From: Paludibacter sp.
GTDB lineage: Bacteria > Bacteroidota > Bacteroidia > Bacteroidales > Paludibacteraceae
Reading direction: 5' to 3'
DNA: 34,207 nt
Assembly (NCBI GenBank): GCA_029973975.1
Contig: JARKQF010000104.1
Coordinates: forward strand, 1-34,207
In this document: positions 2,689 through 27,178 of the stretch, piece after piece
Numbering within the stretch: position 1 is the stretch's first letter
How the letters are laid out: each line of letters opens with the position of its first letter
Notes under the pieces: model-generated
What the model was told of the DNA's origin: nothing
Seen by the model: the letters and a program-made list of their open reading frames with translations, nothing else
Database searches by the model: none
Made by a program: the position numbers and the translations under genes

Positions 2689-2735
2689 ATAGAAAAAGCA
2701 AAATAAGTACAATCAAAATAAAATTATAGAATAGA

Positions 2736-3911: not shown

Positions 3912-3930
3912 TTAATTAAAATTTAGTGTT

Positions 3931-4971: not shown

Positions 4972-5009
4972 TTCAGGTTTTTAGTCAATTTAGATAAAAA
5001 CGGCCAAGG

Positions 5010-5145
5010 TGTTTCAGAAGTATTCAAATGCAAGGTGCTGAGATTGAGTATGAAAATAGCAGAAACGCACGACTGTGCGTTTCTGCGCTCTCCATTTCCC
5101 GTCCGAGTATCGAAAGCAACGCCGCAGTTGTGCGTTTCTGAAACA
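5010..5145. repeat. MITE/REP-like element with nested inverted repeats
   Basis: The outer arms are a perfect 10-bp inverted repeat, TGTTTCAGAA at 5010-5019 and TTCTGAAACA at 5136-5145. Inside is a perfect 12-bp hairpin, GCAGAAACGCAC at 5059-5070 and GTGCGTTTCTGC at 5075-5086, with a GACT loop. GTGCGTTTCTG recurs at 5130-5140 next to the right arm. No target-site duplication is evident. The element makes up most of the gap between the jelly-roll gene and PL6. It is open in the PL6 frame from an ATG at 5035, which creates a false N-terminal extension for that gene. Confidence 0.6.
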
Positions 5146-5169
5146 TCGTTCACAAATAATCTTTTGCTC

Positions 5170-6888: not shown

Positions 6889-6904
6889 AAAGACTTAAAT
6901 TAAT

Positions 6905-6957
6905 TTGGTCAACCAATTTATTGTTTTATTTTTGTTTGTCGAAATTGGTCAACCAAT
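6905..6957 (+). promoter_or_regulatory. Promoter with two GntR/FadR-type operators before the PL17 operon
   Basis: TATTTTTG at 6927-6934 fits the Bacteroidota -7 consensus TAnnTTTG, with a TTG at 6905-6907 placed 19 bp upstream as the -33 element. Palindrome 1 is TTGGTCAACCAA (6905-6916) and overlaps the -33 element. Palindrome 2 is ATTGGTCAACCAAT (6944-6957) and lies just past the expected transcription start near 6940. Their centres are 40 bp apart. The shape TTGGT-N2-ACCAA is that of FadR-subfamily GntR operators, such as the ExuR/UxuR uronate sites of enterobacteria. Repression relieved by an alginate breakdown product is inferred. Confidence 0.7.
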
Positions 6958-6974
6958 CAATGCTGTATTAAATT

Positions 6975-9179
6975 ATGAATTTCAGAAAATACATTTCAAT
7001 TTTTCTTTTTTTATCCGCTACCGGCTTAATCATGGCGGCAACTCATCCGGGTTTGTTTCTTACTCCAAAAGGTGTAAAAGAAATCCGTTCTTCTTTAGGT
7101 AAATATCCTTTGTTCGACCAGTCGTATAATGAACTTAAAAAAATAGCCGATGAAGCGTTAGTTGCTGAAATTGTTGTCCCGCAGCCCAAAGACGGAGGAG
7201 GTGGATATACCCACGAAAAGCACAAAAAGAATTACTATGAGATGAATGCAGCCGGTATTTTGTTTCAGATTACAAAAGACAAGCGGTATGCCTTGTTTGT
7301 GAAAGACATGCTTTTTGCTTATGCAGCAATTTATCCGGATCTGGGATTGCATCCGGCGACAAAATCAGCAACACCCGGAAAAATATTCTGGCAGGCATTG
7401 AATGAAGCTGTATGGCTTGTGCATACCTCGATGGCATACGATTGTGTGTACGATTTTATCTCTGAAAAGGATAGAAAATACATAGAAGCGAATCTGTTTT
7501 ACCCTATGTGTGAGTTTATTTCGAATGGGAATCCTGAAAATTACAAAGTATTTAATAAAATGCATAACCATGGAACGTGGGCTACAGCAGCTGTTGGTAT
7601 GATCGGGTATGTTATGGGCGATAAAAATCTCACAGATATGGCGCTCTATGGTTCCGGTAAAGATGGAAAAACCGGATTCATTCGCCAGCTTGATGTGTTG
7701 TTTTCTCCGGATGGTTATTTTACAGAAGGACCGTATTATCAGCGCTATGCAATCTGGCCGTTCATGACATTTGCACAGGTAGTTCAGCATCAGCAACCGG
7801 AGTTGAAGATATTTGAATATCGGGATGGTATTCTGTTGAAAGCAGTGGACAAACTGTTGCAGAGTTCATATAAAGGTGAAATTTTTTATTTGAATGATGC
7901 ACTTCGCAAAACTTTCAAAACACAGGAAATTGTGTATGCGGTCAATATTGCCTATAAGAATAATCCGAAAAATAAATCCTTGTTTGATATCGTTGGTCAG
8001 CAGGGTGATTTTATCGTTTCTGATGCGGGAATTACTACAGCAAAAGCTTTCTACAGAGAAAAGAACAAACCTTACTATACATACAAATCGTTGTTTATGC
8101 GCGACGGACAAAATGGTACGGAAGGTGGTATTGCCATTGTCAGAAACAGCAATACGCCCGATGCAACTTGCCTCACCTACAAGGCTACATCCCACGGGTT
8201 ATCCCACGGGCATTATGACAAACTCAGCATAACGTTGCATGACAACGGAAATGCAGTCCTGACGGATTATGGAGCCGTACGCTTTTTGAATATTGAGCCT
8301 AAATACGGCGGCCATTATACAAAGGAGAATTATTCCTGGGGCATGCAGACTATTGCTCATAATACGGTGACAATAAACGAAACCAGTCATTTTGAGGCTA
8401 AAATTGATGTTTCTTCCGAGTTCCATCCGGAAATCCTGTATCATGACTTTTCAAATAAAGAAGTTCAATTGATATCTGCTTTGGAGAAAAATGCGTATCC
8501 CGGCACTGAAATGCAACGCACAACTGCCATGTTGAACCATGCTGCTTTTGAGTTTCCTGTTGTTGTCGATATCTTCAGGGTGAAGTCACCACAGGTGAAT
8601 CGTACCGTAGATTTGCCATTTTATTATCAGGGACACATGGTTTCCGCTGATTTTAATTATCAAAAAAATACAGTTGAATTGAAACCATTAGGAGATAAAA
8701 ACGGCTATCAGCATTTGTGGCTCGAAGCAAACGGGAAAACAGATAAACCACAAGCATGTTTTACCTGGGTAAAAGGAGACCGGTTCTACAGTATTACCAC
8801 GCTTACAGATGCTTCGTCGGAATTAATGATGACGCGAACAGGAGCAGGTGACCCTAACTTCAATCTGCGTCAAGATCCGGCATTCATGATTCGTCGGCAT
8901 AATACCGCAAATCACACCTTTGTATCGATAGTTGAGCCACATGGATTGTATGATATATCTAAGGAAGTGACAGTCGGATACCGTAGTAATATTGTATCGC
9001 TGAAATTGCTTGCTGACAATGAAATGATTAGTGTTGTGGAAATAGTAACTGCGGATAATAAAACCCTGCTTTTTGCGGTGAATAATCAGACGGGAAAATC
9101 TGAAAATAAGTTTGATTACAGAGGAGAGCAATATGTATTTACAGGGAACTATCTGTTAAAATTAATAACAAACAAATAA
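6975..9179 (+). CDS. Oligoalginate lyase, family PL17 (exo-acting)
   Basis: A 734-aa protein with an N-terminal signal peptide (about 1-21, ending MAA, no lipobox Cys), an alpha-barrel Alginate_lyase domain (about 25-340) and a heparinase II/III-like beta-sheet domain (about 380-640). Motifs are MHNHGTWATA with Asn198-His199, EGPYYQRY (251-258), SHGLSHGHYDK (407-416) and GGHYTKENYSW with Tyr448, plus TIAHNTVT. These match in order and spacing the Asn-His-Tyr-Tyr catalytic set and metal-binding histidines described for Saccharophagus Alg17C. PL17 enzymes remove monomers from the ends of alginate oligosaccharides, giving unsaturated uronate that becomes DEH. No sorting domain is present, so a periplasmic place fits. 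It is the first gene after the operator pair, and the cupin follows 11 bp later. Confidence 0.92.
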   Translation: MNFRKYISIFLFLSATGLIMAATHPGLFLTPKGVKEIRSSLGKYPLFDQSYNELKKIADEALVAEIVVPQPKDGGGGYTHEKHKKNYYEMNAAGILFQITKDKRYALFVKDMLFAYAAIYPDLGLHPATKSATPGKIFWQALNEAVWLVHTSMAYDCVYDFISEKDRKYIEANLFYPMCEFISNGNPENYKVFNKMHNHGTWATAAVGMIGYVMGDKNLTDMALYGSGKDGKTGFIRQLDVLFSPDGYFTEGPYYQRYAIWPFMTFAQVVQHQQPELKIFEYRDGILLKAVDKLLQSSYKGEIFYLNDALRKTFKTQEIVYAVNIAYKNNPKNKSLFDIVGQQGDFIVSDAGITTAKAFYREKNKPYYTYKSLFMRDGQNGTEGGIAIVRNSNTPDATCLTYKATSHGLSHGHYDKLSITLHDNGNAVLTDYGAVRFLNIEPKYGGHYTKENYSWGMQTIAHNTVTINETSHFEAKIDVSSEFHPEILYHDFSNKEVQLISALEKNAYPGTEMQRTTAMLNHAAFEFPVVVDIFRVKSPQVNRTVDLPFYYQGHMVSADFNYQKNTVELKPLGDKNGYQHLWLEANGKTDKPQACFTWVKGDRFYSITTLTDASSELMMTRTGAGDPNFNLRQDPAFMIRRHNTANHTFVSIVEPHGLYDISKEVTVGYRSNIVSLKLLADNEMISVVEIVTADNKTLLFAVNNQTGKSENKFDYRGEQYVFTGNYLLKLITNK

Positions 9180-12360: not shown

Positions 12361-13908
12361 ATGGAATTATTAGATGTATCATTAGTCAACTGGTCGAGAG
12401 GACAGTTTGCGCTGACCGCCATGTATCACTGGATATTTGTGCCCCTGACACTCGGGGTTGGTGTGGTTATGGCTATCATGGAAACTTTGTATTACAAGAC
12501 CGGAAAAGAAGAATGGAAAAAAGCCACTAAGTTCTGGATGACCTTATTCGGGGTCAATTTTGCCTGCGGGGTAGCCACCGGTATCATTCTTGAGTTTCAG
12601 TTCGGGACCAACTGGTCGAATTACAGTTGGTTTGTGGGCGATATCTTCGGTGCGCCATTGGCCATCGAAGGGATGCTGGCCTTTTTCTTAGAAGCGACTT
12701 TTATTTCGATTATGTTCTTCGGATGGAAAAAGGTGAGCAAGGGATTTCACCTGGCTTCTACTTGGCTGGTGATGTTGGGAGCTACTTTCTCAGCACTCTG
12801 GATTCTCGTAGCCAATGCCTGGATGCAACATCCGATCGGCATGGAGTTTAACCCCGATACGGCCCGTAATGAAATGGTCGATTTCTGGGCTATTCTGCTT
12901 TCTCCGGTAGCGCTGAACAAATTTGCACATACGGTTTTATCGGGATGGGTACTTGGTGCGTTATTCGTAGTGGGGGTAAGCGCCTGGTTTATCCTGAAAA
13001 AACGTGAACTTGATTTTGCCCTGCGCAGCATTAAAATCGGAGCTGTTTTCGGTGTTGTCTCTTCCATCCTGATTATTGCCACAGGTGATGGGTCTGCATA
13101 TCATGTTGCACAGAAACAACCCATGAAGCTGGCTGCTATGGAAGGCTTGTACGAGGGTAAGGAAGGTGCAAATATAGTAGCAATGGGTCTGCTCAATCCG
13201 GAAAAACAATACGATAATGACGAAGAAACTTTCATCGTGAAAATGGATGTACCGATACCGAAACTTTTATCCTTACTCGGTTACCGGGATGCTGATGCTT
13301 TTGTTCCCGGTATCAAGGATATTATTGAAGGATATACCTTGTCGGATGGAACGGTAGTGCCTTCCTTTGCAGAAAAACAAGCAAGTGGAAAGAAAGCCAT
13401 TCAGGCCTTGAACGATTACCGGGAAGCCAAAGCCGCCGGTAATGATTCACTGGCCGTTACGCACAAGGCAGTACTCGATGAAAACTTTAAAAACTTCGGA
13501 TATGGATACCTCGAAAAACCGGTTGATCTGATACCTAATGTGGCGCTGGTATTTTATTCTTTCCACATCATGGTTGCATTGGGCATGTTGTTCCTGGTTA
13601 TTTTCATGGCGGTATGGTTCTTACACTGGAAAAAGAAATTAGAAAATGTTCGCTGGCTCCTGTGGGGGTCGTTGTTTACGATTCCATTAGGTTATCTGGC
13701 AACGCAACTGGGCTGGGTTGTTGCCGAAGTAGGTCGTCAGCCCTGGGCTATTCAGGACGTACTGCCTGTACAGGCTGCAGTATCAAGCGTATCTACCGGG
13801 TCGGTGCAGCTTACTTTCTTCCTTTTCTTAGCTCTCTTCACTGCCCTGCTGATAGCTGAAATCAGGATTATGGTGAAGCAAATTCAGAAGGGACCGGGAA
13901 GCGAATAA
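12361..13908 (+). CDS. cydA: Cytochrome bd quinol oxidase subunit I
   Basis: A 515-aa multi-pass membrane protein, close to the 522 aa of E. coli CydA. Haem ligands can be placed at His23 (TAMYHWIFVPLTLG), His190 (KFAHTVLSGW) and Met404 (YSFHIMVALGM). The quinol-binding Q-loop starts at KQPMKLAAMEG (252-262), and the diagnostic GRQPW is at 458-462. The enzyme oxidises quinol and reduces O2 to water at very low oxygen. It lies between the DUF4492 gene and cydB, with 88 bp to cydB that contain a palindromic repeat. It lets an otherwise anaerobic organism respire or scavenge traces of O2, and it needs the haem made by the cluster downstream. Confidence 0.97.
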   Translation: MELLDVSLVNWSRGQFALTAMYHWIFVPLTLGVGVVMAIMETLYYKTGKEEWKKATKFWMTLFGVNFACGVATGIILEFQFGTNWSNYSWFVGDIFGAPLAIEGMLAFFLEATFISIMFFGWKKVSKGFHLASTWLVMLGATFSALWILVANAWMQHPIGMEFNPDTARNEMVDFWAILLSPVALNKFAHTVLSGWVLGALFVVGVSAWFILKKRELDFALRSIKIGAVFGVVSSILIIATGDGSAYHVAQKQPMKLAAMEGLYEGKEGANIVAMGLLNPEKQYDNDEETFIVKMDVPIPKLLSLLGYRDADAFVPGIKDIIEGYTLSDGTVVPSFAEKQASGKKAIQALNDYREAKAAGNDSLAVTHKAVLDENFKNFGYGYLEKPVDLIPNVALVFYSFHIMVALGMLFLVIFMAVWFLHWKKKLENVRWLLWGSLFTIPLGYLATQLGWVVAEVGRQPWAIQDVLPVQAAVSSVSTGSVQLTFFLFLALFTALLIAEIRIMVKQIQKGPGSE

Positions 13909-13922
13909 CGGAAAACGGAAAC

Positions 13923-13950
13923 GTAGAGACGCGATTAATCGCGTCTCTAC
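13923..13950. repeat. 28-bp perfect palindrome, GTAGAGACGC family, copy 1
   Basis: The half-site GTAGAGACGCGATT is followed directly by its exact reverse complement. It lies in the 88-bp gap between cydA and cydB. A second copy with a different centre is at 23451-23478. It has no T-tract and sits inside an operon, so it is more likely a REP-like mobile palindrome than a terminator. Confidence 0.85.
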
Positions 13951-13996
13951 ATGCGTTCGAAAACCGGGATATTTTAACAACTTTAAATAAATCATT

Positions 13997-15142
13997 ATGA
14001 CAACATACGCATTTCTTCAACATTACTGGTGGTTCCTGATTTCCCTGCTGGGAGGATTATTAACTTTTCTCCTTTTCATTCAGGGCGGACAATCCATGCT
14101 TTTTTCGCTTTCTAAAACTGAAGATGAGAAAAGATTGCTCGTGAATGTGTTGGGACGGAAATGGGAATATACATTTACTACCTTAGTTACTTTTGGCGGT
14201 GCCTTTTTCGCATCTTTCCCCCTGTTTTATTCAACGAGTTTCGGGGGTGCTTACTGGGTGTGGATCATTATCCTGTTTGCTTTTACCATACAGGCTTTTT
14301 CTTATGAATTTCAGTCGAAACCGGGTAACGTATACGGAAAAACCACCTATCGCAGTCTGTTATTTATCAATGGCTTGCTGGGCACTTTCCTGCTGGGTGT
14401 TGCCGTGGCTACTTTCTTTACCGGTTCCGACTTTACAGTTGGAAAAGGAAATATCACCAATATTGCCTCTCCGGTAATCAGTCGCTGGGGTAATGGTTGG
14501 CATGGGCTCGAAGCGCTGGCTTGTCCGCGAAACCTTTTCCTGGGATTAACGATCTTTTTCCTGGCACGTACGCTGGCAACCTTGTTCTTTATCAACCGTT
14601 TGAATCATGAAGTGCTGGAAAACCGTTCACATAAGTACTTGCTGTATAACGCCATTCCTTTCGTGGTGTTTTTTCTGGCTTTCGTGATTTCAATTTTCTT
14701 GTCCGAAGGTTTTGCCGTACAGGAAGACGGAACGGTTTATTTGGAGAAATACAAATACTTCAACAATCTTATCGATATGCCGGTTGTGGGGATTTTATTC
14801 CTGTTGGGTGTTGTGGCTGTACTGTATGGAATCATTACCTCAATTTTAAAAAAATCATTTAAAAAAGGTATATGGTTTTCTGGGGCCGGTACGGTTGTAA
14901 CGGTAACCATGCTGTTGCTGATTGCCGGGTATAATAACACTTCTTTCTATCCGTCATCAACTGATCTGCAAAGTTCTCTGACCATCTTCAATGCTTCATC
15001 CAGCGAGTTTACGCTCAAAGCCATGTCGTGGGCTTCCATCCTGGTGCCAATCGTGGCAGGTTATATCTTCATTGCCTGGAGGGCGCTTGAAAAGAAAAAG
15101 ACCGATATGGACGACATAAATAGTGATAGTCACGCGTACTGA
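13997..15142 (+). CDS. cydB: Cytochrome bd quinol oxidase subunit II
   Basis: A 381-aa multi-pass protein. The alignable landmarks with CydB are the N-terminal YWWFLISLLGG, FTTLVTFGGAFFASFPLFYSTSF (second helix pair), the PSST loop, SLTIFNASSSEFTLKAMSWA near the end, and a C-terminal Tyr. The DGFDLGVG motif of proteobacterial CydB is replaced by IQGGQSML, which I recognise as the usual Bacteroidota form and not damage. It forms the heterodimer with CydA. The gene is followed by an intrinsic terminator at 15164-15199. Confidence 0.95.
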   Translation: MTTYAFLQHYWWFLISLLGGLLTFLLFIQGGQSMLFSLSKTEDEKRLLVNVLGRKWEYTFTTLVTFGGAFFASFPLFYSTSFGGAYWVWIIILFAFTIQAFSYEFQSKPGNVYGKTTYRSLLFINGLLGTFLLGVAVATFFTGSDFTVGKGNITNIASPVISRWGNGWHGLEALACPRNLFLGLTIFFLARTLATLFFINRLNHEVLENRSHKYLLYNAIPFVVFFLAFVISIFLSEGFAVQEDGTVYLEKYKYFNNLIDMPVVGILFLLGVVAVLYGIITSILKKSFKKGIWFSGAGTVVTVTMLLLIAGYNNTSFYPSSTDLQSSLTIFNASSSEFTLKAMSWASILVPIVAGYIFIAWRALEKKKTDMDDINSDSHAY

Positions 15143-15163
15143 TTTATTGTTAATTTCCTGATT

Positions 15164-15199
15164 AAACCTGTCAGATATCAAAAACTGACAGGTTTTTTT
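15164..15199 (+). terminator. Intrinsic terminator after cydB
   Basis: An 11-bp stem, AAACCTGTCAG (15164-15174) with CTGACAGGTTT (15185-15195), a 10-nt A-rich loop and a run of seven T (15193-15199). The stem sequence belongs to the same AAACCTG/CAGGTTT family as the small palindrome at 25225-25239. Confidence 0.9.
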
Positions 15200-15260
15200 A
15201 TTGTTCATGCAACAAATAAATTGTTTTTTTCATCATAAGATTGTTTAACACCAATCAAAT

Positions 15261-15316
15261 TATTTTTGATATGAAACTAACATGAACTAATTTATTAAAT
15301 GATTAAATTAGTTCAT
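15261..15316 (+). promoter_or_regulatory. Promoter and 13-bp inverted repeat before the NigD-like gene
   Basis: TATTTTTG at 15261-15268 is a -7-like element, with TTG at 15241-15243 somewhat close (17 bp) as a -33. A perfect inverted repeat follows, ATGAACTAATTTA (15282-15294) and TAAATTAGTTCAT (15304-15316), with a 9-nt spacer. It begins about where the transcript should start and could be an operator or a 5' stem-loop. Apart from these, the gap between cydB's terminator and the lipoprotein shows nothing. Confidence 0.5.
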
Positions 15317-15357
15317 CGAGAGTTCCATACGACAACTAAAAAATAAAATTTAAGCGT

Positions 15358-16116
15358 ATGAAAAAGATAGTATTTAAAATTTCATTCTTTGTATTAGTAA
15401 GTAGCCTTTTTGTCGGTTGTGCCGATGATGATTACTCTCCCGATAACTATTGGGTGAATATTGCTACAGTCGATAACCAGGAGGAAAAATCAAAGTTCTT
15501 TCTAAATTTGGATGATGGTTCAAGTTTATGGACCCAGGAAACTAATTTTTCAAACTACAAACCAAAAGATGGGCAACGTGTAATTGCATATTATTCGGTG
15601 CTCTCCGACAAACGGGCAACCGGTCTGTACGATTATGATGTTAAATTGCATGATGTTTATGAAGTGTTGACAAAAGGAATATTTCAAATAACACCGGAAA
15701 AACAGGACAGCATCGGCAATGATTCGATTTATGTATCCGATATGTGGGTGGGTAGTAAATATCTGAATGTAGAGTTTTATTATTACGGATGGAACAAAAC
15801 ACACTTTATTAATCTGGTATCTGACGATTCTAAAACCTATACAGATGGTAAAGTGCATCTGGAATTCAGGCATAATGCCAACAATGATGAGTCATATCAT
15901 CGTCGCTGGGGTATCGTTTCTTTTGATATCAGTTCGTTGCAGTCGAATACGGTCGACTCTGTGAACCTTGTTATCCAGGTTAATATGCCTAATCAGGTTG
16001 AAGATAAATTGTTTGAACTGACCTATCGCTACAATAATAACGGAAGTGCGGGTGTTGTAAAAAAATCCCCTATCCAGAAGGCTGATGCCTATGTGCGTGA
16101 TAATGAAGTGAGATAA
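15358..16116 (+). CDS. NigD-like lipoprotein
   Basis: A 252-aa protein with a type II signal peptide and lipobox LFVGC (Cys21), followed by acidic residues DDD, which in Bacteroidota often go with surface display. The rest is an N-terminal small beta domain (KPKDGQRVIAYYSVL at about 64-78) and a C-terminal beta-sandwich with YLNVEFYYYGWNKTHFINLV (about 140-159) and HLEFRHNANND (about 172-182). This layout fits the two-domain NigD-like family (NigD N/C). Members are linked in name to a Bacteroides bacteriocin region, but their function is unsettled. It stands alone between two terminators and behind its own promoter. Confidence 0.75.
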   Translation: MKKIVFKISFFVLVSSLFVGCADDDYSPDNYWVNIATVDNQEEKSKFFLNLDDGSSLWTQETNFSNYKPKDGQRVIAYYSVLSDKRATGLYDYDVKLHDVYEVLTKGIFQITPEKQDSIGNDSIYVSDMWVGSKYLNVEFYYYGWNKTHFINLVSDDSKTYTDGKVHLEFRHNANNDESYHRRWGIVSFDISSLQSNTVDSVNLVIQVNMPNQVEDKLFELTYRYNNNGSAGVVKKSPIQKADAYVRDNEVR

Positions 16117-16135
16117 ATTTGTTTTTTAATTTTGC

Positions 16136-16172
16136 AAAAAAGCCTGCGTCCTTAGGGATTGCAGGTTTTTTT
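16136..16172 (+). terminator. Intrinsic terminator after the NigD-like gene
   Basis: A stem GCCTGCGTCC (16142-16151) pairs with GGGATTGCAGG (16155-16165) with one bulge and a short TTA loop. A-run and T-run extensions sit on the two sides, and T continues through 16172. Confidence 0.8.
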
Positions 16173-16204
16173 GTTTTTGACTTTTTCTGTCCTGATTTTT
16201 TGAT

Positions 16205-16255
16205 TACTTTTGTAACATTTGTTACACTTGTCGTTGTTTTCAGACATTATTTTTG
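16205..16255 (+). promoter_or_regulatory. Candidate promoter and FNR/CRP-like site of the haem cluster
   Basis: The palindrome TGTAAC-ATTT-GTTACA (16211-16226) has the 4-bp spacer usual for FNR/CRP-family sites. TATTTTTG at 16248-16255 is a -7 element, with TTG at 16228-16230 at 17 bp. The expected start near 16260 puts the palindrome centre about 42 bp upstream, which is the class II activator position. A second -7-like TACTTTTG (16205-16212) overlaps the palindrome, so a repressor arrangement is also possible. Confidence 0.5.
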
Positions 16256-16291: not shown

Positions 16292-18394
16292 ATGAAACGT
16301 AAATACCCCCTTTTTATCCTTGTTTTTATTAGTTCTTTGGTTTACCCGGAAAATAATCCTGTAACGGATGAAAAGAGCAATACAAATGATGTAGAACTGA
16401 ATGAAATTGTGGTACAGGCTTCCAGAACAAGCACCAAACAAAAAGAAATGCCGGCTTCTGTAAGCATTATTTCTGCCTCATCCCTGGAATTAAACGAAAT
16501 GAATACCCTGAATAATTCAACAGCTTTCATTCCTAATTTTTATATGCCCGATTATGGTACCAAACTGACTTCTCCGGTATACATCAGGGGAATAGGCTCA
16601 AGAATCAATGCGCCGTCTGTTGGAATGTATGTGGATAATATCCCGTACTTTGAAAAAGCATCTTTTGATTTTGATTTTTTTGATGTGCAGAAAATTGAGG
16701 TATTGAGAGGACCGCAGGGAACTTTGTTCGGGCGTAACAGTATGGGTGGCTTGATTAATATCAGTACCTGGTCGCCGGCCGACTATCAGGGAACGCATTT
16801 ACGTGCATCAGTAGCTAACTATGGTCAGTATAAATTAAACGCCGGTCATTATAATAAAATTTCGGAACAACTGGCTTTTAGTGTTGCTCTGAATTATTTA
16901 CATCAGGATGGTTTCTACCTGAATACGACACTGGATGAAAAGGTAGATAAGCTGGATGCTTATGGTGTCAGATTAAAAGGGCAATATCAAATTGATGATC
17001 GTTGGTCGCTGGAACTGGTTTCCAATACCGATATCAGCAATCAGGGAGGTTATCCCTACGCTTTATACAACCGGAATACGCAAACCATGGGAGAGGTGAA
17101 TTATAATCAACGAAGCGGTTATGACCGCATGCTGATGTCGAATGCACTGAAATTGGGATACGCTGCGCCTGAATGGGAGTTATCCAATACTTTATCATAC
17201 CAGTTACTTGATGATGAGCAGCAAATCGACCAGGATTTTGGTCCTGATTCGCTGCACTTTGCCGGTCAGTTACAGTTTCAGCATAATTTAGCCAACGAAA
17301 CAATCATCCGTTCGAATACCAACAACCGGTACAAATGGTTGTTTGGCATGTTTGCATTCAACCAACAAGCTGAAAATACGGTGGATGTAAACAGCTACAA
17401 AACTAAAACAGATACGGGACTTGTGCATTATACCTATCAAAAACAATATGGACCTGTTAGTTCCGGAGTTGCGGTTTTTCATCAGTCCTCGTACAACATT
17501 ATTCCTCAATTGACTCTGACTGCCGGCATCCGGTTGGATTACGAACAATCTTCTATACAGTACAAGTATAACGGTATTATGGGAGAAACAGTACAAACAC
17601 CTGTTGACACTGTTTATCCGGCACTCCGGGATATGGTGGTACTCCCTAAATTAGCCATCGCCTATGCACCTGGTGATAAAATCAATGTATATGCATCCTA
17701 TTCAACAGGATACAAACCGGGAGGGTTTAACAGTACATTTGAAAAGCCTGAACACCTGATGTTTAAAAAGGAAATCAGTCATAATTATGAAGCAGGAGTA
17801 AAAGTAAATTTGTTTCAGTACTTTTACGCTGATTTTGCTCTGTTTTATACCGATTTAAAAAATCAGCAAATCTATCGTACTGCTCCTAGTGGTAGAGGTT
17901 CTTATCTTGATAATTCCGGTTTATCACGCAACAAAGGGGTAGAGTTTACCCTGCACAATCAGTCGTTTCATGGTTTTGAGGGTATGGTCGCGTATGGTTA
18001 TACCCATGCAAAGATTTTGAAATATGAATTGAGCAATGCTGTGAATTACAACGATAAATTTACTCCTTATGTCCCCGGGCATACATTAGCCCTGCAGGCT
18101 ACACAGACTCTGACATTCAAACATATAAAATGGATGGATAAGCTCCGGTTTAATGTGTTGTACAGTCGAACGGGTTCTCTGTACTGGAATCTTTCCAACA
18201 CGCTGAAAGAAGCAGGTTATGGCTTGTTGAACGGGAAAATATCGCTGATATCCGGTAAGTATCAGTTTGATGTCTGGGGAAAAAACCTCACAAATACCCG
18301 GTATCATGCTTTTTTATTTGAATCATTACCCAATGTGTATGCTCAGTCGGGTAAACCTTTGCAGGTGGGTGTAAATTTTTCCGTAAAATGGTAG
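16292..18394 (+). CDS. TonB-dependent outer-membrane receptor
   Basis: The start at ATG 16292 (MKRKYPLFILVFIS) gives a proper signal peptide and 700 aa; in-frame ATGs at 16253 and 16256 would add a poor leader. A TonB-box-like VELNEIVVQA is at 34-43 and a plug domain at about 45-160 with PVYIRGIGSR, VGMYVDNIPY and KIEVLRGPQGTLFGRNSMGGLINI. A 22-strand-type barrel follows and ends on an aromatic residue (VNFSVKW). There is no carboxypeptidase-like (SusC) N-terminal domain, so it belongs to the siderophore/haem-type receptors. It is translationally close to the permease (1 bp between stop and ATG) and to three haem-synthesis genes, which points to a tetrapyrrole or iron complex as ligand. Confidence 0.88.
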   Translation: MKRKYPLFILVFISSLVYPENNPVTDEKSNTNDVELNEIVVQASRTSTKQKEMPASVSIISASSLELNEMNTLNNSTAFIPNFYMPDYGTKLTSPVYIRGIGSRINAPSVGMYVDNIPYFEKASFDFDFFDVQKIEVLRGPQGTLFGRNSMGGLINISTWSPADYQGTHLRASVANYGQYKLNAGHYNKISEQLAFSVALNYLHQDGFYLNTTLDEKVDKLDAYGVRLKGQYQIDDRWSLELVSNTDISNQGGYPYALYNRNTQTMGEVNYNQRSGYDRMLMSNALKLGYAAPEWELSNTLSYQLLDDEQQIDQDFGPDSLHFAGQLQFQHNLANETIIRSNTNNRYKWLFGMFAFNQQAENTVDVNSYKTKTDTGLVHYTYQKQYGPVSSGVAVFHQSSYNIIPQLTLTAGIRLDYEQSSIQYKYNGIMGETVQTPVDTVYPALRDMVVLPKLAIAYAPGDKINVYASYSTGYKPGGFNSTFEKPEHLMFKKEISHNYEAGVKVNLFQYFYADFALFYTDLKNQQIYRTAPSGRGSYLDNSGLSRNKGVEFTLHNQSFHGFEGMVAYGYTHAKILKYELSNAVNYNDKFTPYVPGHTLALQATQTLTFKHIKWMDKLRFNVLYSRTGSLYWNLSNTLKEAGYGLLNGKISLISGKYQFDVWGKNLTNTRYHAFLFESLPNVYAQSGKPLQVGVNFSVKW

Positions 18395-18395
18395 G

Positions 18396-19595
18396 ATGAT
18401 GAAACTAAAATTCCCCACCCTTTTCAGTTTGTACATTGCCCAATCGATTCCGATGAGTTTCTTCTCTACGGTTGTTCCGGTAATTATGCGACAGGAACAG
18501 TATTCACTTGAATCCATCGGATTACTTCAACTGGTGAAACTTCCCTGGATATTCAAATTTTTATGGGCGCCATTGGTCGACAATCATGCCAATAACAGGA
18601 AACAAATCAGGAGATGGATCATTTTTTCGGAACTGTTTTACGCGGGTGTGATTCTTAGCATCAGTTTGTTCAGTCTGCAAACCGATTTCAGGTTAATCGT
18701 GATGTTAATGATTCTGGCATTTATTGCATCGGCAACACAGGATATAGCAACGGATATTTTTGCTATTCGTATTCTCCGTCCCGAAGAAAAGGCGGTAGGC
18801 AACGGGATTCAGTCGGGAGGAAGTTTCATCGGTAGCTTATTCGGGACCGGTGTGTTGCTGCTGGCCTATCATTATCTCGGATGGCAGTATCTGTTGTGGA
18901 TACTCGCAGCTTTTGTTGTTTTCGCGATCGTACCACTGTATGTTTACCGGCCTGAATCCGATTTATCGATAGAAAAGAAAGGCAGGGTTAAGGTAACGGA
19001 TATTTTTTCTTTTTTCAAAGAAAAACTTGCCCGAAAAAGGTTGTTGGTGCTCATGTTCTACTATTCCGGACTAATCGGTATACTGGCCATGCTTAAGCCT
19101 TATATGGTTGATCTGGGCTATAATGTCAAAGAAATAGGATTCATGTCGGGTATTGTAGGTACTGCTGTAGCAGCTACTTTTGCATTTCTGGGTGGATATA
19201 TTGTCAAGTTCACCGGAAGAAAGACTGCGGCTTATCTTTTCGCGTTACTGAATCTTTTCGTGGGGGTGTTTTTCTACCTGATATCCATGCATACGCCTTC
19301 CTTACTTGAGTTGTATGTCGGCATTTGTTTGCTGTGGGGTGCATACGGACTTTCAACAGTAGTCATTTACACTACTTCGATGGATGCCGTGCGGCCGTCG
19401 AGTTCCGGGACTGATTTCACCGTTCAGATTGTGGTTGCTCATTTGAGTTCAATGTTGATTGCTGTTTTCAGTGGTAAAGTGGGTGATCTGGTTGGATATC
19501 ATTCCTTATTTGGGATAGAAGCATTATTTTCGCTCTGCTCGGTATTGATTTTATTTTATGTGTATCCGGTAAAAATGAAATATGGAAATAGATAA
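18396..19595 (+). CDS. MFS permease, RhtX/FptX/AmpG-like
   Basis: A 399-aa, 12-TM major facilitator protein. The N-terminal SLYIAQSIPMSFFSTVVPVI, LPWIFKFLWAPLVD and ATQDIATDIFAIRIL patterns match single-component permeases such as AmpG and the siderophore importers RhtX/FptX. It begins 1 bp after the TonB receptor stop, and its last 14 bases overlap hemN, so translation is probably coupled. An inner-membrane partner for the TonB receptor is the simplest reading: cargo passes the outer membrane by the receptor and the inner membrane by this permease. The cargo is unknown. Porphyrin(ogen), haem or a siderophore are candidates, and the neighbouring genes favour a tetrapyrrole. Confidence 0.8.
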   Translation: MMKLKFPTLFSLYIAQSIPMSFFSTVVPVIMRQEQYSLESIGLLQLVKLPWIFKFLWAPLVDNHANNRKQIRRWIIFSELFYAGVILSISLFSLQTDFRLIVMLMILAFIASATQDIATDIFAIRILRPEEKAVGNGIQSGGSFIGSLFGTGVLLLAYHYLGWQYLLWILAAFVVFAIVPLYVYRPESDLSIEKKGRVKVTDIFSFFKEKLARKRLLVLMFYYSGLIGILAMLKPYMVDLGYNVKEIGFMSGIVGTAVAATFAFLGGYIVKFTGRKTAAYLFALLNLFVGVFFYLISMHTPSLLELYVGICLLWGAYGLSTVVIYTTSMDAVRPSSSGTDFTVQIVVAHLSSMLIAVFSGKVGDLVGYHSLFGIEALFSLCSVLILFYVYPVKMKYGNR

Positions 19596-20961
19596 ATTGC
19601 TGATAGATAAATACAATGTTCCGGTACCGAGGTACACGAGTTATCCGCCGGCCAATCATTTTGAACAGATATTTTCTGATGACGACTATTTTCGATTGAT
19701 AGAGGAATCGAATGGAGGTAATCCGGATAATATTGCCATTTACATTCACATTCCCTTTTGTAAAAAAATATGTTTTTATTGTGGATGTAATACAGCTTTG
19801 TACAAAGGAGAGTCGTTGGTTGCGGATTATATCGCGGCGTTAAAAAAAGAAATACTGTTGGTATCGAAGTACATCGATAAAAAGCGCAGGGTTTCGCAGA
19901 TACATTACGGTGGCGGAACGCCCAATGCCATAGATGTCACATATCTGGAGCAAATTAACCGATTGTTGTTTGATTTGTTCGAATTCATTCCGAAACCTGA
20001 AATTGCGATTGAGTGCCATCCCGGTCATTTAGACGAACTGTATCTCCGCAGGCTGTTGAATGCCGGATTTAATCGTTTCAGTCTGGGGATTCAGGATTTT
20101 GACAATGAAGTGCTGGCTGCTGTCAATCGTAATCCTTCGGCTATGCCGGTAGGAGATATTATCGACATTTTGAAGCAGGATCAACCTGGTATTTCGGTAA
20201 ATTTTGACTTTATTTACGGATTGCCGGGGCAAACAGTTGAACGTTTCAGACAGACTATTGAACAGGCAGTGGCACTCTGTCCCGACCGGCTTGTTACGTT
20301 CTCATACGCCCATGTACCCTGGATAAAAAAACATCAGAAGGTACTTGAAAAAAAAGGGATCAAAACATCAACCGAGAAAATCGATTTGTTTCTTAACTCC
20401 AGAGAGATTTTGTTGCAGGCGGGTTATGAACCGATCGGACTTGATCATTATGTGTTGCCGGCAGATGAACTAAATCAGGCGTTACAGAACAGCCAGTTGC
20501 ACCGGAATTTTCAGGGGTATTGTACGCGCAGAACCACAGGGCAGGTTTATGCTTTCGGTGTTTCTTCCATCAGTCAGCTCGAAAGCGCGTATCTGCAAAA
20601 CGAGAAAGATACCATTGAATACATCCGGCTGATTAATGAGGGGAAAACGGCGGTTAAAAATGGATTGGAAGTTAATGCGGAACAAAAGATCATTCGCGGA
20701 GTAATTGAAAAAATCATGTGTAACAAGGAGCTTGATTTAAATCGCTTTTGTGAAGAGTACAAGGTCGATATGTCAAAATTTCAGCGAGTCACGCAGTTTG
20801 ATCCAGCCGGTCTGAACGATTTTGTTTCAGATGGCTTAATCCGGTTTGAAAATAATATTTTAACAATAACCGATGCAGGATCATTTTTTATCCGTAATAT
20901 TGCAGCCTCTTTTGATCCAACCTTAAAGCAAAAGGAAAAACAGTATTCAAAATCTGTTTGA
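19582..20961 (+). CDS. hemN: Oxygen-independent coproporphyrinogen III dehydrogenase
   Basis: A 459-aa radical SAM enzyme, the same size as E. coli HemN (457). The cluster motif CKKICFYCGC gives Cys60, Cys64, Cys67 and Cys69. The N-terminal PRYTSYPPANHF, YAHVPWIKKHQ and GLDHYVLPADEL...HRNFQGYCTR mark true HemN as opposed to the HemW/HutW relatives. It converts coproporphyrinogen III to protoporphyrinogen IX without O2. The gene overlaps the permease by 14 bases and precedes hemG by 61 bp. Confidence 0.95.
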   Translation: MEIDKLLIDKYNVPVPRYTSYPPANHFEQIFSDDDYFRLIEESNGGNPDNIAIYIHIPFCKKICFYCGCNTALYKGESLVADYIAALKKEILLVSKYIDKKRRVSQIHYGGGTPNAIDVTYLEQINRLLFDLFEFIPKPEIAIECHPGHLDELYLRRLLNAGFNRFSLGIQDFDNEVLAAVNRNPSAMPVGDIIDILKQDQPGISVNFDFIYGLPGQTVERFRQTIEQAVALCPDRLVTFSYAHVPWIKKHQKVLEKKGIKTSTEKIDLFLNSREILLQAGYEPIGLDHYVLPADELNQALQNSQLHRNFQGYCTRRTTGQVYAFGVSSISQLESAYLQNEKDTIEYIRLINEGKTAVKNGLEVNAEQKIIRGVIEKIMCNKELDLNRFCEEYKVDMSKFQRVTQFDPAGLNDFVSDGLIRFENNILTITDAGSFFIRNIAASFDPTLKQKEKQYSKSV

Positions 20962-21022
20962 ATTTTTCTCAAGAAATAAGAAAAAAGTTTCCCTGACGAA
21001 ATATTGTTGTATAATTTTTTAA

Positions 21023-22399
21023 ATGATGGAATTTTCAAAACCTGATATAATTATTATCGGGGCAGGATTGACGGGTCTGACAGCGGCATATTACCTTCGA
21101 AAAGCAGGTAAAAAAGTGTTGTTGATTGAGCAGCACAACCGCCCGGGAGGTGTCATCAGAACTATTACTGAAGATGGATTTACATTTGAAGCCGGCCCCA
21201 ATACCGGCGTTATAAGTTCAGCCGAGCTTGTTCAGCTTTTTCACGACTTAAAACTTCAGTTTGAAGTCCCCGGGAAAGCAAGTAGAGCTCGTTGGATATG
21301 GAAAAAAGGCAGGTGGCATGCATTGCCGGCAGGTTTGCTCTCAGCGATATTTACGCCGTTGTTTAAGTTTAAAGATAAAATCAGGGTGCTCGGAGAACCT
21401 TTCAGGAGAAAGCGGCATCGGTTGAATGAAAGCGTGGCAAAGTTAGTCAAGCGCCGGTTGGGAAAGAGCTTTCTGAGGTATGCCGTGGATCCTTTTATTT
21501 CGGGTATTTATGCCGGTGATCCGGAAAAATTAATTGTCCGGTTTGCATTGCCCAGGTTGTATGCTCTTGAGCATAAGTACGGAAGTTTTGTAAAAGGGAC
21601 TATTAAAAGAAGAAAAATCATCGCGGCAGAGAAGGCTGCAGGTATTACAAAATCAGTTTTTTCTGTAGAAGGAGGGCTGGAAAACCTTGTCCGCACTTTG
21701 ATTAGAGAGATAGGAGAAGAATATATTATCACCGGAGCAATGGATGTTCGTGTTGAGCCGTTACAGAAAAAGTTTGCTTGTCGGTTTAACGTCAATGGCG
21801 AAAGCCGGGAACTCGTTACAGAGAGGCTCATTTCTACAGTTGATGGTTTGTCGGTTGCTTCATTATTGCCATTTATTCCGCAAGAAGTGATGGGTAAAAT
21901 TACAGCCATTCGCTATGCAAAAGTCGTGCAGGTGGTGGTTGGATTTAGGAACTGGAAAGGAATTCCTCTGCAGGCTTTTGGAGGTCTGATTCCCTCGAAA
22001 GAAAAGAAAGATATTCTCGGTATTTTATTTCCATCTGCTTTGTTTAAAAACCGGGCGCCGGAAGGAGGAGCGCTTTTATCCGTGTTTGCTGGAGGCATTA
22101 AGCGACCGGATATATACCTGAAAACAGATGAAGAAATAAAGACCATAGTGTTTGAAAGCATAAAAAGCATGATGAAGTGTGCAGATAAACCGGATCTGGT
22201 TCGCATTTTCAGGTACGAAAAGGCAATTCCGCAATACGAATCCACTACGGAGTTGAGATTATTTACCATTCAGGAAATCGAAAAAGCATATCCCGCTCTG
22301 ATTCTTGCCGGTAATATGCGCGATGGTATAGGAATGTCGGACAGGGTGAAGCAGGCAAAGCAAATTGCCGATCAATTGTTAGTCGTTGATAATTCCTGA
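21023..22399 (+). CDS. hemG: Protoporphyrinogen oxidase, FAD-dependent HemG/HemY type
   Basis: A 458-aa flavoprotein with the dinucleotide-binding GAGLTG (13-18), Glu36 ending strand 2 (LLIEQ), the RPGGVIRT motif and FEAGPNTG (55-62), typical of PPOX (TIGR00562-type). The C-terminal LILAGNMRDGIGMSDRVKQA is the second FAD-contact motif. It oxidises protoporphyrinogen IX to protoporphyrin IX. This protein class normally uses O2, unlike HemN beside it, although other acceptors may serve in low oxygen. Two ATGs lie in tandem (21023 and 21026). It ends 4 bp before hemH. The gene symbol follows common Bacteroidota use; hemY is equally valid. Confidence 0.92.
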   Translation: MMEFSKPDIIIIGAGLTGLTAAYYLRKAGKKVLLIEQHNRPGGVIRTITEDGFTFEAGPNTGVISSAELVQLFHDLKLQFEVPGKASRARWIWKKGRWHALPAGLLSAIFTPLFKFKDKIRVLGEPFRRKRHRLNESVAKLVKRRLGKSFLRYAVDPFISGIYAGDPEKLIVRFALPRLYALEHKYGSFVKGTIKRRKIIAAEKAAGITKSVFSVEGGLENLVRTLIREIGEEYIITGAMDVRVEPLQKKFACRFNVNGESRELVTERLISTVDGLSVASLLPFIPQEVMGKITAIRYAKVVQVVVGFRNWKGIPLQAFGGLIPSKEKKDILGILFPSALFKNRAPEGGALLSVFAGGIKRPDIYLKTDEEIKTIVFESIKSMMKCADKPDLVRIFRYEKAIPQYESTTELRLFTIQEIEKAYPALILAGNMRDGIGMSDRVKQAKQIADQLLVVDNS

Positions 22400-22403
22400 A
22401 TAA

Positions 22404-23411
22404 ATGAGCAAGGCAATTCTGTTAATAAATCTGGGTACGCCGGATTCTCCGGACAAAAAATCCGTTCGTAGTTATTTACGGCAGTTTTTGAATGACCCCT
22501 TTGTGATAGATATGCCACGTATTGCTCGCTTGCTGTTAGTTAATCTCATTATCATTCCTTTCCGGCTAAACAAATCGACAAAGCTTTACAAACGCTTGTG
22601 GACAGAATCCGGTTCGCCTATATTGTTGCATCTGGAAAAATTGCGGGAGCGACTTCAACATGAATCAGGAGAAAAATATCCCGTTTATGCCGCCATGCGT
22701 TATGGAAACCCATCCATACAGTCAGTTTTATCCGCAATAGATCAATCAGGCGTTGAAGAAGTGTTGGTGCTTCCGTTGTTTCCGCAATATGCTTCATCCA
22801 CAACCGGAAGCATAGTTCATGCCGTGCAAAAACACAAAAAAAAGCTGCAAAACATCCGGGGCATCAAATTTATCCGGCAATTCTACGATGATCCGGGGTT
22901 TATCAATGCTTTTTGCAAACGCATTGCCGGTTATCAGCCGGAGAGCTTCGATCACATCATTTTCTCCTGTCACAGTCTGCCTGAGCGACATATTCAGCTC
23001 ATTCATCCTGAGCATCGTGTTCATGGCTGTGTCTGCGAGCAAAAAATGCCTGTATATGGCAAGGAATGTTACAAGGCTACCGGTTACCAGACTGCACGCC
23101 TGATTGCCGGCGCCCTCAACCTGTCGCAGGATCATTACACCGTATCTTTTCAGTCTCGTTTTGCCAGGAAATGGATTGGTCCGTTTACCGAGGATGTCGT
23201 GATTCAGTTAGCCAGAGAAGGCAAATCACGTATTTTGGTAGTCGCCCCTTCCTTTGTTGCCGATTGCCTCGAAACCATTGTCGAAATCGGGCAAGACTAC
23301 CGTGAACTTTTCATCCGCCATGGCGGAAAAGAGTTGGTGATGTGTGAAAGTTTGAATGCAGAAGAGGAATGGGTGGAGGCGGTTAAAGAGATGCTTGGTT
23401 TTAATCATTGA
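22404..23411 (+). CDS. hemH: Ferrochelatase
   Basis: A 335-aa protein starting LLINLGTPDSP. Signature blocks are SCHSLPERH with the catalytic His190, SFQSRFARKWIGP (248-260) and APSFVADCLETIVEIG (281-296). It inserts Fe2+ into protoporphyrin IX to make haem. An internal segment between the active-site block and ECYKATGYQT carries Cys189, Cys209, Cys211 and Cys222 (C-V-C ... ECY), a four-Cys set like that proposed to bind a [2Fe-2S] cluster in some bacterial ferrochelatases. It is the last gene of the cluster, with no clear terminator directly after it. Confidence 0.95.
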   Translation: MSKAILLINLGTPDSPDKKSVRSYLRQFLNDPFVIDMPRIARLLLVNLIIIPFRLNKSTKLYKRLWTESGSPILLHLEKLRERLQHESGEKYPVYAAMRYGNPSIQSVLSAIDQSGVEEVLVLPLFPQYASSTTGSIVHAVQKHKKKLQNIRGIKFIRQFYDDPGFINAFCKRIAGYQPESFDHIIFSCHSLPERHIQLIHPEHRVHGCVCEQKMPVYGKECYKATGYQTARLIAGALNLSQDHYTVSFQSRFARKWIGPFTEDVVIQLAREGKSRILVVAPSFVADCLETIVEIGQDYRELFIRHGGKELVMCESLNAEEEWVEAVKEMLGFNH

Positions 23412-26179: not shown

Positions 26180-27178
26180 TTAAATTGCCTTTAAGGTAAA
26201 TGCATCTAAATATGAAATCATATTATGATTCTCAATGTTCTTGATCCAGGCATTTTCCTCATGACTTAGTGCGACAATTTCTTTGGTTGTTATTTTTTTA
26301 AATCTTGAAGCGACAGTCATTAGCGTGTTAATCTCATCCTTCGTGAAAAATAAGGCGTCGAAATCTGCACGAGCGATTAGTCGTTCGCCGGTTATATCGT
26401 TGGGATAAAATTCATCTTTGCGGTCAACAATATCGGAAGTGTTGTCAATCAATCCGGCATAATGTTGCGGGACAGGTCCATTTGTGATTGCTTTGTAGCT
26501 TATGCCGCTTATGGCGTATCCGGTATTTTTATAATGAAAGAAATCGGCGTAAAAGAGCAATTTATTCATTTTTGTTACAAAAGGTTCCAGCTGTGAAGCA
26601 AAGAACAAGACCATCTGTTTGGCTTTGTTGAGGTCGGGTTTTACGTATCCTGTAAATTCTCCACGGCTAACATGTCCTAATGCTGCATACTCCTTATATG
26701 CCTCATCTTTCAAACTGTCTTTTTTCTCAATAGCAGTATCAATTTTTTTTAAAATCGATGTTTTCTCTTTTTCATCGAATTTTGATGAATTGCACAGAAA
26801 AAAATGTCTGAATATATCAGGGTTACTACATATTGAACGGATCATCCTGCCGTTTGAAATGTTTGGAATTTCACCAGCTTCGTATTTACCATACATGTTT
26901 ACGCCTAAACCAAGGATGAGCGACATTTTAGTGGCAGGAATCCCATACTGACTACGGTATTGGATTATTTCATCTTTGTAAGGGATACTTTCTTTTTCTC
27001 TGTACCTGTTGTGTAATTGATTCAGATTCAATTCATCTAATCGTGTGTCAGAAAAAAGCTCACCTGTATCCTGACATCTGTAATAATGATGCATAATCTC
27101 CATGTTGGATCCCCTGAATTCGTGCGTGCGGAGTTCTTTTTCTAAAATGACTTTTCCGCCTGTAAATGGACTTTTCAT
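26180..27178 (-). CDS. Panacea (DUF4065)-domain antitoxin with MqsA-like N-terminus
   Basis: A 332-aa protein. Residues 1-60 resemble the zinc-binding start of MqsA/YgiT proteins, but the CPxC positions read SPFT and the second pair CQDT, so three of four Cys are lost. Residues 66-118 form a helix-turn-helix (RSQYGIPATKMSLILGLGVNMYGKYEAGEIP). Residues about 185-315 are a Panacea/SocA-like domain with KMNKLLFYADFFHYKNTG, ITNGPVPQHY and SHEENAWI. Panacea proteins neutralise many unrelated toxins and are usually the second gene of a pair. Here the ATG overlaps by 4 bp (ATGA) the stop of a short upstream frame that looks like a deleted toxin. Autoregulation through the helix-turn-helix is likely. 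Confidence 0.85.
   Translation of the reverse strand: MKSPFTGGKVILEKELRTHEFRGSNMEIMHHYYRCQDTGELFSDTRLDELNLNQLHNRYREKESIPYKDEIIQYRSQYGIPATKMSLILGLGVNMYGKYEAGEIPNISNGRMIRSICSNPDIFRHFFLCNSSKFDEKEKTSILKKIDTAIEKKDSLKDEAYKEYAALGHVSRGEFTGYVKPDLNKAKQMVLFFASQLEPFVTKMNKLLFYADFFHYKNTGYAISGISYKAITNGPVPQHYAGLIDNTSDIVDRKDEFYPNDITGERLIARADFDALFFTKDEINTLMTVASRFKKITTKEIVALSHEENAWIKNIENHNMISYLDAFTLKAI

Follow-up and report, generated by a model that had tools for sequence, protein, structure and literature searches.

A five-gene cluster in the genome of Paludibacter sp. probably forms a self-contained haem-precursor salvage module that imports coproporphyrin(ogen) III. The cluster lies in a stretch of 34,207 nucleotides (contig JARKQF010000104.1, referred to here as the window), which is number 159 of the 358 contigs in an assembly of 3.56 Mb with 85.7% completeness and 5.7% contamination. 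Five plus-strand genes run head to tail from 16292 to 23411 and encode a TonB-dependent receptor (TBDR), a permease of the major facilitator superfamily (MFS), HemN, an FAD-type protoporphyrinogen oxidase (HemG) and ferrochelatase (HemH). The receptor and permease genes are separated by 1 bp, the permease and hemN genes overlap by 14 bp, and gaps of 61 bp and 4 bp follow between hemN and hemG and between hemG and hemH. An earlier reading of the window, made from the sequence alone (the sequence-only reading), had reported the 1-bp spacing, the overlap and the five-gene content, and these are confirmed by the coordinates and by family matches. Its suggestion that coproporphyrinogen III or a related porphyrin is taken up gains support from the finding that HemN occurs with either HemE or the permease, a pattern from which the ligand is predicted.

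The proposed route crosses both membranes. At the outer membrane, the receptor would take up a porphyrin with four carboxyl groups that neighbouring microbes release, with coproporphyrinogen III or its oxidised form, coproporphyrin III, as the best candidates. Transport on into the cytoplasm would fall to the permease, which probably uses the proton gradient, and there HemN, the FAD oxidase and ferrochelatase would finish protohaem via the ordinary protoporphyrin route. What the pair carries, in which redox state, in which direction and with what source of energy is predicted from sequence and genome comparisons.

HemE and the permease as alternative companions of HemN

Across genomes the permease takes the place of HemE as companion of HemN: nearly every genome with HemN has one of the two, and hardly any has both. 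If the receptor and permease import the substrate of HemN, then HemN is expected with either HemE or the pair, not with both. The distribution was determined in an order sample of 247 genomes, all at least 90% complete except that of the window. The permease was called at an E value of 1e-50 and HemE and HemN over their model cut-offs, and the sub-cut-off HemN proteins of three genomes (G261, G284 and G313) were dropped. The permease was found in 35 genomes, HemE in 41 and HemN in 70, and 171 have none of the three. The 70 HemN genomes divide into 37 with HemE only, 29 with the permease only, two with both and two with neither (Fisher p 5e-15). When each of the 45 families was represented by a single genome, 1000 draws gave a median p value of 1e-10 and a worst value of 1.8e-8. 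That permease and HemN occur together is in itself partly trivial, as both belong to one operon. More telling is that HemE is present in 37 of the 39 HemN genomes without the permease versus 2 of the 31 with it. In the families of the two genomes with neither companion, the other sampled genomes with HemN carry HemE, and the two may owe their state to incomplete assemblies. Since families f3 and f53 include genomes of either kind, more than one change between HemE and the permease has taken place.

This exclusion is not predicted if the pair imports a ferric siderophore. In that case the siderophore would supply iron to ferrochelatase, and the haem genes would adjoin the transporters for shared regulation only. 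HemN would then be left without a visible source of substrate in 29 of the 31 genomes that have both the permease and HemN. In addition, no siderophore biosynthesis or siderophore-interacting gene was found among the eight window genes scanned (the operon, cydB, the NigD gene and a nuclease gene). Siderophore import is therefore quite improbable, despite the relationships of the transport proteins described below.

The position of HemN also bears on the import of later intermediates. The pair could take up protoporphyrin IX, protoporphyrinogen, haem or a broad range of porphyrins, with HemN handling the coproporphyrinogen share of the mixture. HemG is the most constant partner of the pair, being found downstream in 68 of the 69 loci that offer 3.5 kb or more of sequence, and it is kept in loci where HemN is missing (L132, L090, L130 and L133). 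However, 31 of the 35 permease genomes of the order sample have HemN no more than 600 bp from the permease. Import of protoporphyrin or haem needs no HemN, and it would not make the two companions of HemN exclusive. Such uptake is unlikely as the general function of the pair.

Most of the genomes with the operon lack HemE. A set of 53 operon-bearing genomes was assembled from the window genome (G000, which is also in the order sample), G062, G098 and 50 of the 80 named loci described below. HemE over the cut-off is missing from 47 of them and present in 6, while HemC is present in 12. Counting 20 genomes with matches under the cut-off, HemE-like proteins occur in 26 of the 53; the remaining 27, including the window genome, have none. 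The 20 sub-cut-off proteins could be taken to mean that an unrecognised enzyme replaces HemE. Uroporphyrinogen III would then be made or imported, HemN would be fed internally, and the pair would do something else. Uroporphyrinogen III could indeed be made in the 12 genomes with HemC, but 41 of the 53 lack HemC and 27 lack any HemE-like match. Furthermore, the HemC gene of the closest relative (G099) sits in a siroheme and sulphite-reductase cluster. Replacement of HemE is the least probable of the explanations considered, and we give it very little weight.

The early genes in G099 form a distinct cluster (L125, 5672-15572). A hemA gene, a hemC-SUMT-hemD fusion, hemB and hemL are found between sulphite reductase and CysDN-like genes, and HemE was not found in this genome. 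The hem neighbours in L125 and L127 were named from their translations, except HemC and HemE, which were assigned by hidden Markov models. The G099 cluster is apparently devoted to siroheme synthesis for sulphate assimilation, and it would stop before coproporphyrinogen. A route from siroheme to haem was considered and rejected. AhbD (TIGR04545) exceeds the cut-off in none of ten genomes; nine of the ten have sub-cut-off matches, and matches of this type were also found in all 14 control genomes, with one over the cut-off.

Early steps of haem synthesis appear to be missing from more than the window, and the bacterium seems unable to make haem de novo. The sequence-only reading had noted their absence from the stretch it covered. 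This now extends to the whole window genome (85.7% complete) for HemB, HemC and HemE, none of which was found; HemA, HemL and HemD were outside the genome-wide search. No complete haem pathway was found elsewhere in this genome, an outcome that agrees with the uptake originally proposed.

Two other traits speak for the proposed function, in counts that take no account of relatedness. Cytochrome bd, a haem enzyme, is found in 33 of the 35 permease genomes versus 125 of the 173 genomes with neither HemE nor the permease (p 0.003), and in 28 of the 39 with HemE only. HmuY, a marker of haem uptake whose search matched none of 14 control genomes, is found in 2 of the 35 versus 35 of the 173 (p 0.03), and in 3 of the 39. 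The Hus and Hmu systems of Porphyromonas gingivalis resemble the system proposed here in that they provide TonB-dependent uptake of porphyrin or haem in a haem-auxotrophic member of Bacteroidales. They differ in that HmuY is present in just the two permease genomes mentioned above, and the published account of them used for this comparison mentions neither hemN nor a permease.

Conservation of the operon

The order of the five genes is conserved in Bacteroidales and beyond. Scanning of the GTDB species genomes for the permease yielded 208 related proteins, and only the best 80 were retained, so the counts lean to near relatives. Together with the window and two further relatives, these make up 83 loci. 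A TBDR gene is directly upstream in 70 of the 72 loci with enough sequence (L093 and L096 lack it), and hemN is directly downstream in 74 of the 76 testable loci (the exceptions are L084 and L090). In the 65 loci that extend 4.8 kb or more downstream, the order is HemN-HemG-HemH in 44, HemN-HemH-HemG in ten, HemN-HemG in ten and HemG-HemH in one. The ten HemN-HemH-HemG loci have a diverged ferrochelatase, and in the ten HemN-HemG loci HemH is not in that stretch or is on the other strand. The organisms are mostly assigned to Bacteroidales, to Bacteroidetes or to genera of that group. The sequence-only reading had raised the question of recurrence in other Bacteroidales; the order does recur there, and also in at least one Ignavibacteriae record (L092). 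The permease of the nearest named relative, Paludibacter sp., is 94% identical. Since the order recurs in most of the 83 loci, a chance neighbourhood is ruled out.

The module can be mobile. A conjugative plasmid of Bacteroides xylanisolvens from a human abscess (pFunn3_1, NZ_CP045613.1, 56 kb) has genes for the receptor, the permease, HemN, HemG and a DUF4491 protein (L148, 6515-13207), and a short integrase gene is found just upstream. The pFunn3_1 permease is the best plasmid match, with 45% identity. The next plasmid matches have at most 34% identity and, where inspected, are of siderophore or unassigned kind.

The transport proteins

The receptor is a TonB-dependent receptor by its Plug (PF07715, 2e-16) and TonB beta-barrel (PF00593, 1.4e-34) domains. 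Its AlphaFold2 (AF2) model has a pLDDT of 87.6. Among solved structures its nearest relative is the yersiniabactin receptor FyuA (4epa, E 2.5e-70), to which the model aligns over 615 residues with a Z score of 43.0 and a root-mean-square deviation (rmsd) of 2.1. The score with the TonB siderophore receptor model TIGR01783 is 111.9 bits, under the cut-off of 223.5. The haem receptors ChuA, ShuA and HasR are also among the structural matches, which is a point in favour of haem or protoporphyrin as the ligand; their Z scores are below those of siderophore receptors, and a lower Z excludes nothing. However, the TonB haem receptor models are far under their cut-offs (TIGR01785, 78.6 versus 316.85 bits; TIGR01786, 72.5 versus 323.75), and histidine was not found in any invariant or nearly invariant column of 46 aligned receptors. 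The lack of a conserved histidine column fits an iron-free ligand without proving it. PqqU (YncD), the TonB-dependent receptor for PQQ, shares the siderophore-type barrel (9c4o, E 2e-28, Z 35.4). It has a different ligand and is more distant from the window receptor than FyuA is. Its kinship with the window receptor shows that siderophore-type barrels can serve iron-free cofactors.

The permease is related to siderophore and muropeptide transporters. It matches MFS_1 with an E value of 1.7e-29. The best-scoring permease model is that of RhtX/FptX (TIGR02718, 156.4 bits), under its cut-off of 356, and the AmpG model (TIGR00901) gives 132.9 bits, under its cut-off of 350. AmpG belongs to the same MFS subfamily, with a full-length profile match (8zgz, E 7.8e-36) and a structural alignment of 389 residues (Z 35.5, rmsd 4.8). 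It differs in having 21% identity to the window permease and another gene context, and the window permease is under the AmpG cut-offs. Many MFS structures tie in Z score, with OxlT highest at 35.8, so the fold says little about function.

The permeases linked to haem genes form a group of their own. In a midpoint-rooted FastTree phylogeny without an AmpG outgroup, all 50 permeases included (41 core and nine from exception loci; L156, which has no annotation, was omitted) fall into one clade with a support of 0.972 that excludes all ten plasmid relatives. Forty-nine of the 50 adjoin the receptor gene, haem genes or both, and one stands alone. Seven of the plasmid relatives adjoin a TonB receptor, and three of these seven also adjoin siderophore genes, namely catechol synthesis genes (L152), IucA/IucC (L155) and a siderophore-interacting protein (L151); L153, L154 and L159 have neither. 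These neighbours are in favour of a siderophore as the ligand of the window pair, but the separate clade and its different conserved residues are not. At 39 positions a residue is at least 95% conserved in the core permeases and present in at most three of the ten plasmid relatives. They include K48, E79, W314, Y317 and H349, and E79 is replaced by Q in all ten plasmid relatives. Basic and aromatic side chains would be fitting partners for a ring with carboxyl groups, with placement in the cavity judged from helix position only.

A siderophore-type import pair for two membranes seems to have been recruited to carry a haem precursor. FptA/FptX and the rhizobactin transporter RhtX are experimentally studied siderophore import systems with a TonB receptor and a single-component MFS permease. 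The window pair has the same two-gene, two-membrane logic, TIGR02718 is its best permease model, and FptA is among the matches of the receptor. In contrast to these systems, the window permease is in its own clade, is under the TIGR02718 cut-off, is in an operon with HemN-HemG-HemH and tracks the absence of HemE.

The haem enzymes

The three enzymes of the operon match their families above the cut-offs. HemN scores 437 bits with TIGR00538 (cut-off 325). Across the 83 loci, all 76 full-length HemN frames, including that of the window, contain the four-cysteine motif CX3CX2CXC, and HemW is described as lacking the fourth cysteine of this motif (PMC11442138). The protoporphyrinogen oxidase scores 248 bits with TIGR00562 (cut-off 98) and has a GxGxxG motif at residue 13. 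The sequence-only reading had named it HemG; protoporphyrinogen oxidase is correct, but TIGR00562 places it in the FAD/amine-oxidase (HemY) type and not in the flavodoxin type. HemG of E. coli is of the flavodoxin type. Ferrochelatase scores 233 bits with TIGR00109 (cut-off 125) and matches PF00762 with an E value of 5.5e-92. A CxC-x10-C motif is found at residues 209-222, and a similar motif occurs in 44 of the 59 HemH frames that were read, including that of the window. Enzymes with this motif are possibly of the iron-sulphur type. It is missing from 11 diverged ferrochelatases and four others.

Variation among the operons and observations against the proposed function

Several observations weigh against coproporphyrin(ogen) import. 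The closest solved receptor is FyuA and the closest permease model is RhtX/FptX, as expected for siderophore import, and the nearest characterised relatives of the two transport proteins overall are siderophore or muropeptide transporters. When the analysis is not conditioned on HemN, the avoidance between permease and HemE in the 247 genomes is weak (p 0.04), and 6 of the 53 operon genomes contain HemE. The substrate of HemN is a porphyrinogen, which oxidises in air, and an oxidised ligand would have to be re-reduced before HemN could use it. HemN does not reach its cut-off in four of the 35 permease genomes (G163, G201, G273 and G344). TBDR-MFS-HemG-HemH is retained in G273 and in the named locus L090, G163 (L130) and G344 (L133) keep TBDR-MFS-HemG only, with ferrochelatase not found in either genome, and the permease of G201 stands alone. 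In L084 (7854-11185) the TBDR-MFS pair is followed by 4.7 kb without any haem gene, which is a point in favour of siderophore import. Coproporphyrin(ogen) import does not explain L084 or G201. Finally, G370 (L137) has TBDR-MFS-HemN with neither HemG nor HemH alongside; the presence of HemN and not HemG beside the pair in this genome is also contrary to protoporphyrin or haem import.

The existence of operons without HemN suggests that some members take up protoporphyrin(ogen). HemF was examined as a hidden coproporphyrinogen oxidase and rejected, as it is found in 7 of the 247 genomes and in none of the four permease genomes without HemN. Operons without ferrochelatase make a role in iron supply less likely. 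G098 and G312 have HemN and HemG with no ferrochelatase match, and together with G163 and G344 they would have no use for a link between siderophore import and ferrochelatase. Bacteroides fragilis is reported to lack a classical HemH yet to make haem from protoporphyrin and iron (PMC6460266).

HemN, HemF, HemE and ferrochelatase were not found in G163 and G344, the two genomes in which the pair has only the oxidase beside it. In L084 two ABC-transporter-like genes, named by reading, follow the pair on the opposite strand, and a ferrochelatase gene is located elsewhere in the genome.

Possible exchange of haem precursors between species

The operon may divide the haem pathway between species at a fixed step. 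According to this broader proposal, Bacteroidales and their relatives have a mobile, dedicated importer of coproporphyrinogen III. Donors would build the ring through HemE, and recipients would import the product and finish it. Some branches would have moved to protoporphyrin(ogen) by losing HemN, and a conjugative plasmid could pass the trait to human-associated Bacteroides. We give the proposal in this full form an even chance.

 Haem auxotrophy within Bacteroidota is described as concentrated in Bacteroidales, and coproporphyrins released by Sphingopyxis are cited as aiding the growth of Leucobacter (both PMC11139205). One account of Porphyromonas gingivalis lists HemD, HemN, HemG and HemH (PMC13227078), and an importer seems, from another account, to be missing in this species too (PMC6173696). 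Kinetoplastid protists have only the last three enzymes of haem synthesis, and import from coproporphyrinogen III onward has been suggested for them (PMC4870792); they differ from the system proposed here in being eukaryotes and in having no operon. The sequence-only reading knew of no characterised importer for such a precursor in this group. In agreement, no characterised bacterial coproporphyrin importer or operon of this kind is named among the matches listed in the open-access literature (titles and beginnings of abstracts, with subscription papers mostly outside), and no coproporphyrin(ogen) importer family turned up in the profile libraries searched.

Some haem-auxotrophic Bacteroidales keep a puzzling tail of the pathway, which a dedicated precursor importer, if confirmed, would explain. 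It would also name a metabolite that is cross-fed in anoxic communities, and it could suggest a growth supplement for uncultured bacteria similar to Paludibacter. The plasmid copy in B. xylanisolvens and the isolates among the organisms with the operon make the idea directly testable. One culturable organism with the operon is Marinilabiliaceae bacterium JC040 (L077), in which neither HemE nor HemC was found.

The operon and its surroundings in the window

The receptor gene probably starts its own transcription unit, because a terminator-like hairpin follows the upstream NigD gene (Table 1). The predicted fold has an energy of -24.3 kcal/mol (z -6.7), and none of 200 shuffled sequences was equally stable. 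A scan of the window for consensus promoters and terminators gave results at or under background, and the hairpin was missing from its output. Scans of the window for tRNAs and Rfam families found nothing. The start of the receptor gene was taken as the ATG at 16292, and the longest frame opens at a TTG at 16253. Co-transcription of the five genes is presumed.

Table 1. Coordinates and properties of the operon genes and the upstream hairpin in the window.
Feature	Position	Strand	Length	Remarks
Hairpin resembling an intrinsic terminator	16134..16174	+		Between the NigD and receptor genes; 3' arm ends in U's
TonB-dependent outer-membrane receptor, proposed coproporphyrin(ogen) receptor	16292..18394	+	700 aa	Plug and barrel
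MFS permease, RhtX/FptX-AmpG superfamily, proposed inner-membrane porphyrin(ogen) importer	18396..19595	+	399 aa	
HemN	19582..20961	+		TIGR00538 above cut-off; CX3CX2CXC at residue 60
FAD-type protoporphyrinogen oxidase (HemY type; HemG in Bacteroidales usage)	21023..22399	+	458 aa	TIGR00562
Ferrochelatase HemH	22404..23411	+	335 aa	TIGR00109, PF00762, HSLP motif, CxC-x10-C motif

The genes around the operon include several of other functions. Genes for cydA, cydB and a NigD-type lipoprotein precede it (12361-16116). The same block is found in L038 and L039, and NigD alone in L037. Cytochrome bd was rejected as a conserved link of the operon, since only the window, L038 and L039 have it upstream among the 83 loci and the terminator-like hairpin intervenes. 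Directly 3' of the operon is a gene for a PD-(D/E)XK nuclease-family protein (PF14281, 23734-24954), and a protein with a SocA/Panacea antitoxin-like domain is encoded on the minus strand at 26180-27178. The beginning of the window (1-9179) is a polysaccharide-lyase neighbourhood with genes for alginate lyase, chondroitinase B, a heparinase II/III-like protein and an esterase-like protein; genes for an MFS transporter and a short-chain dehydrogenase come next.

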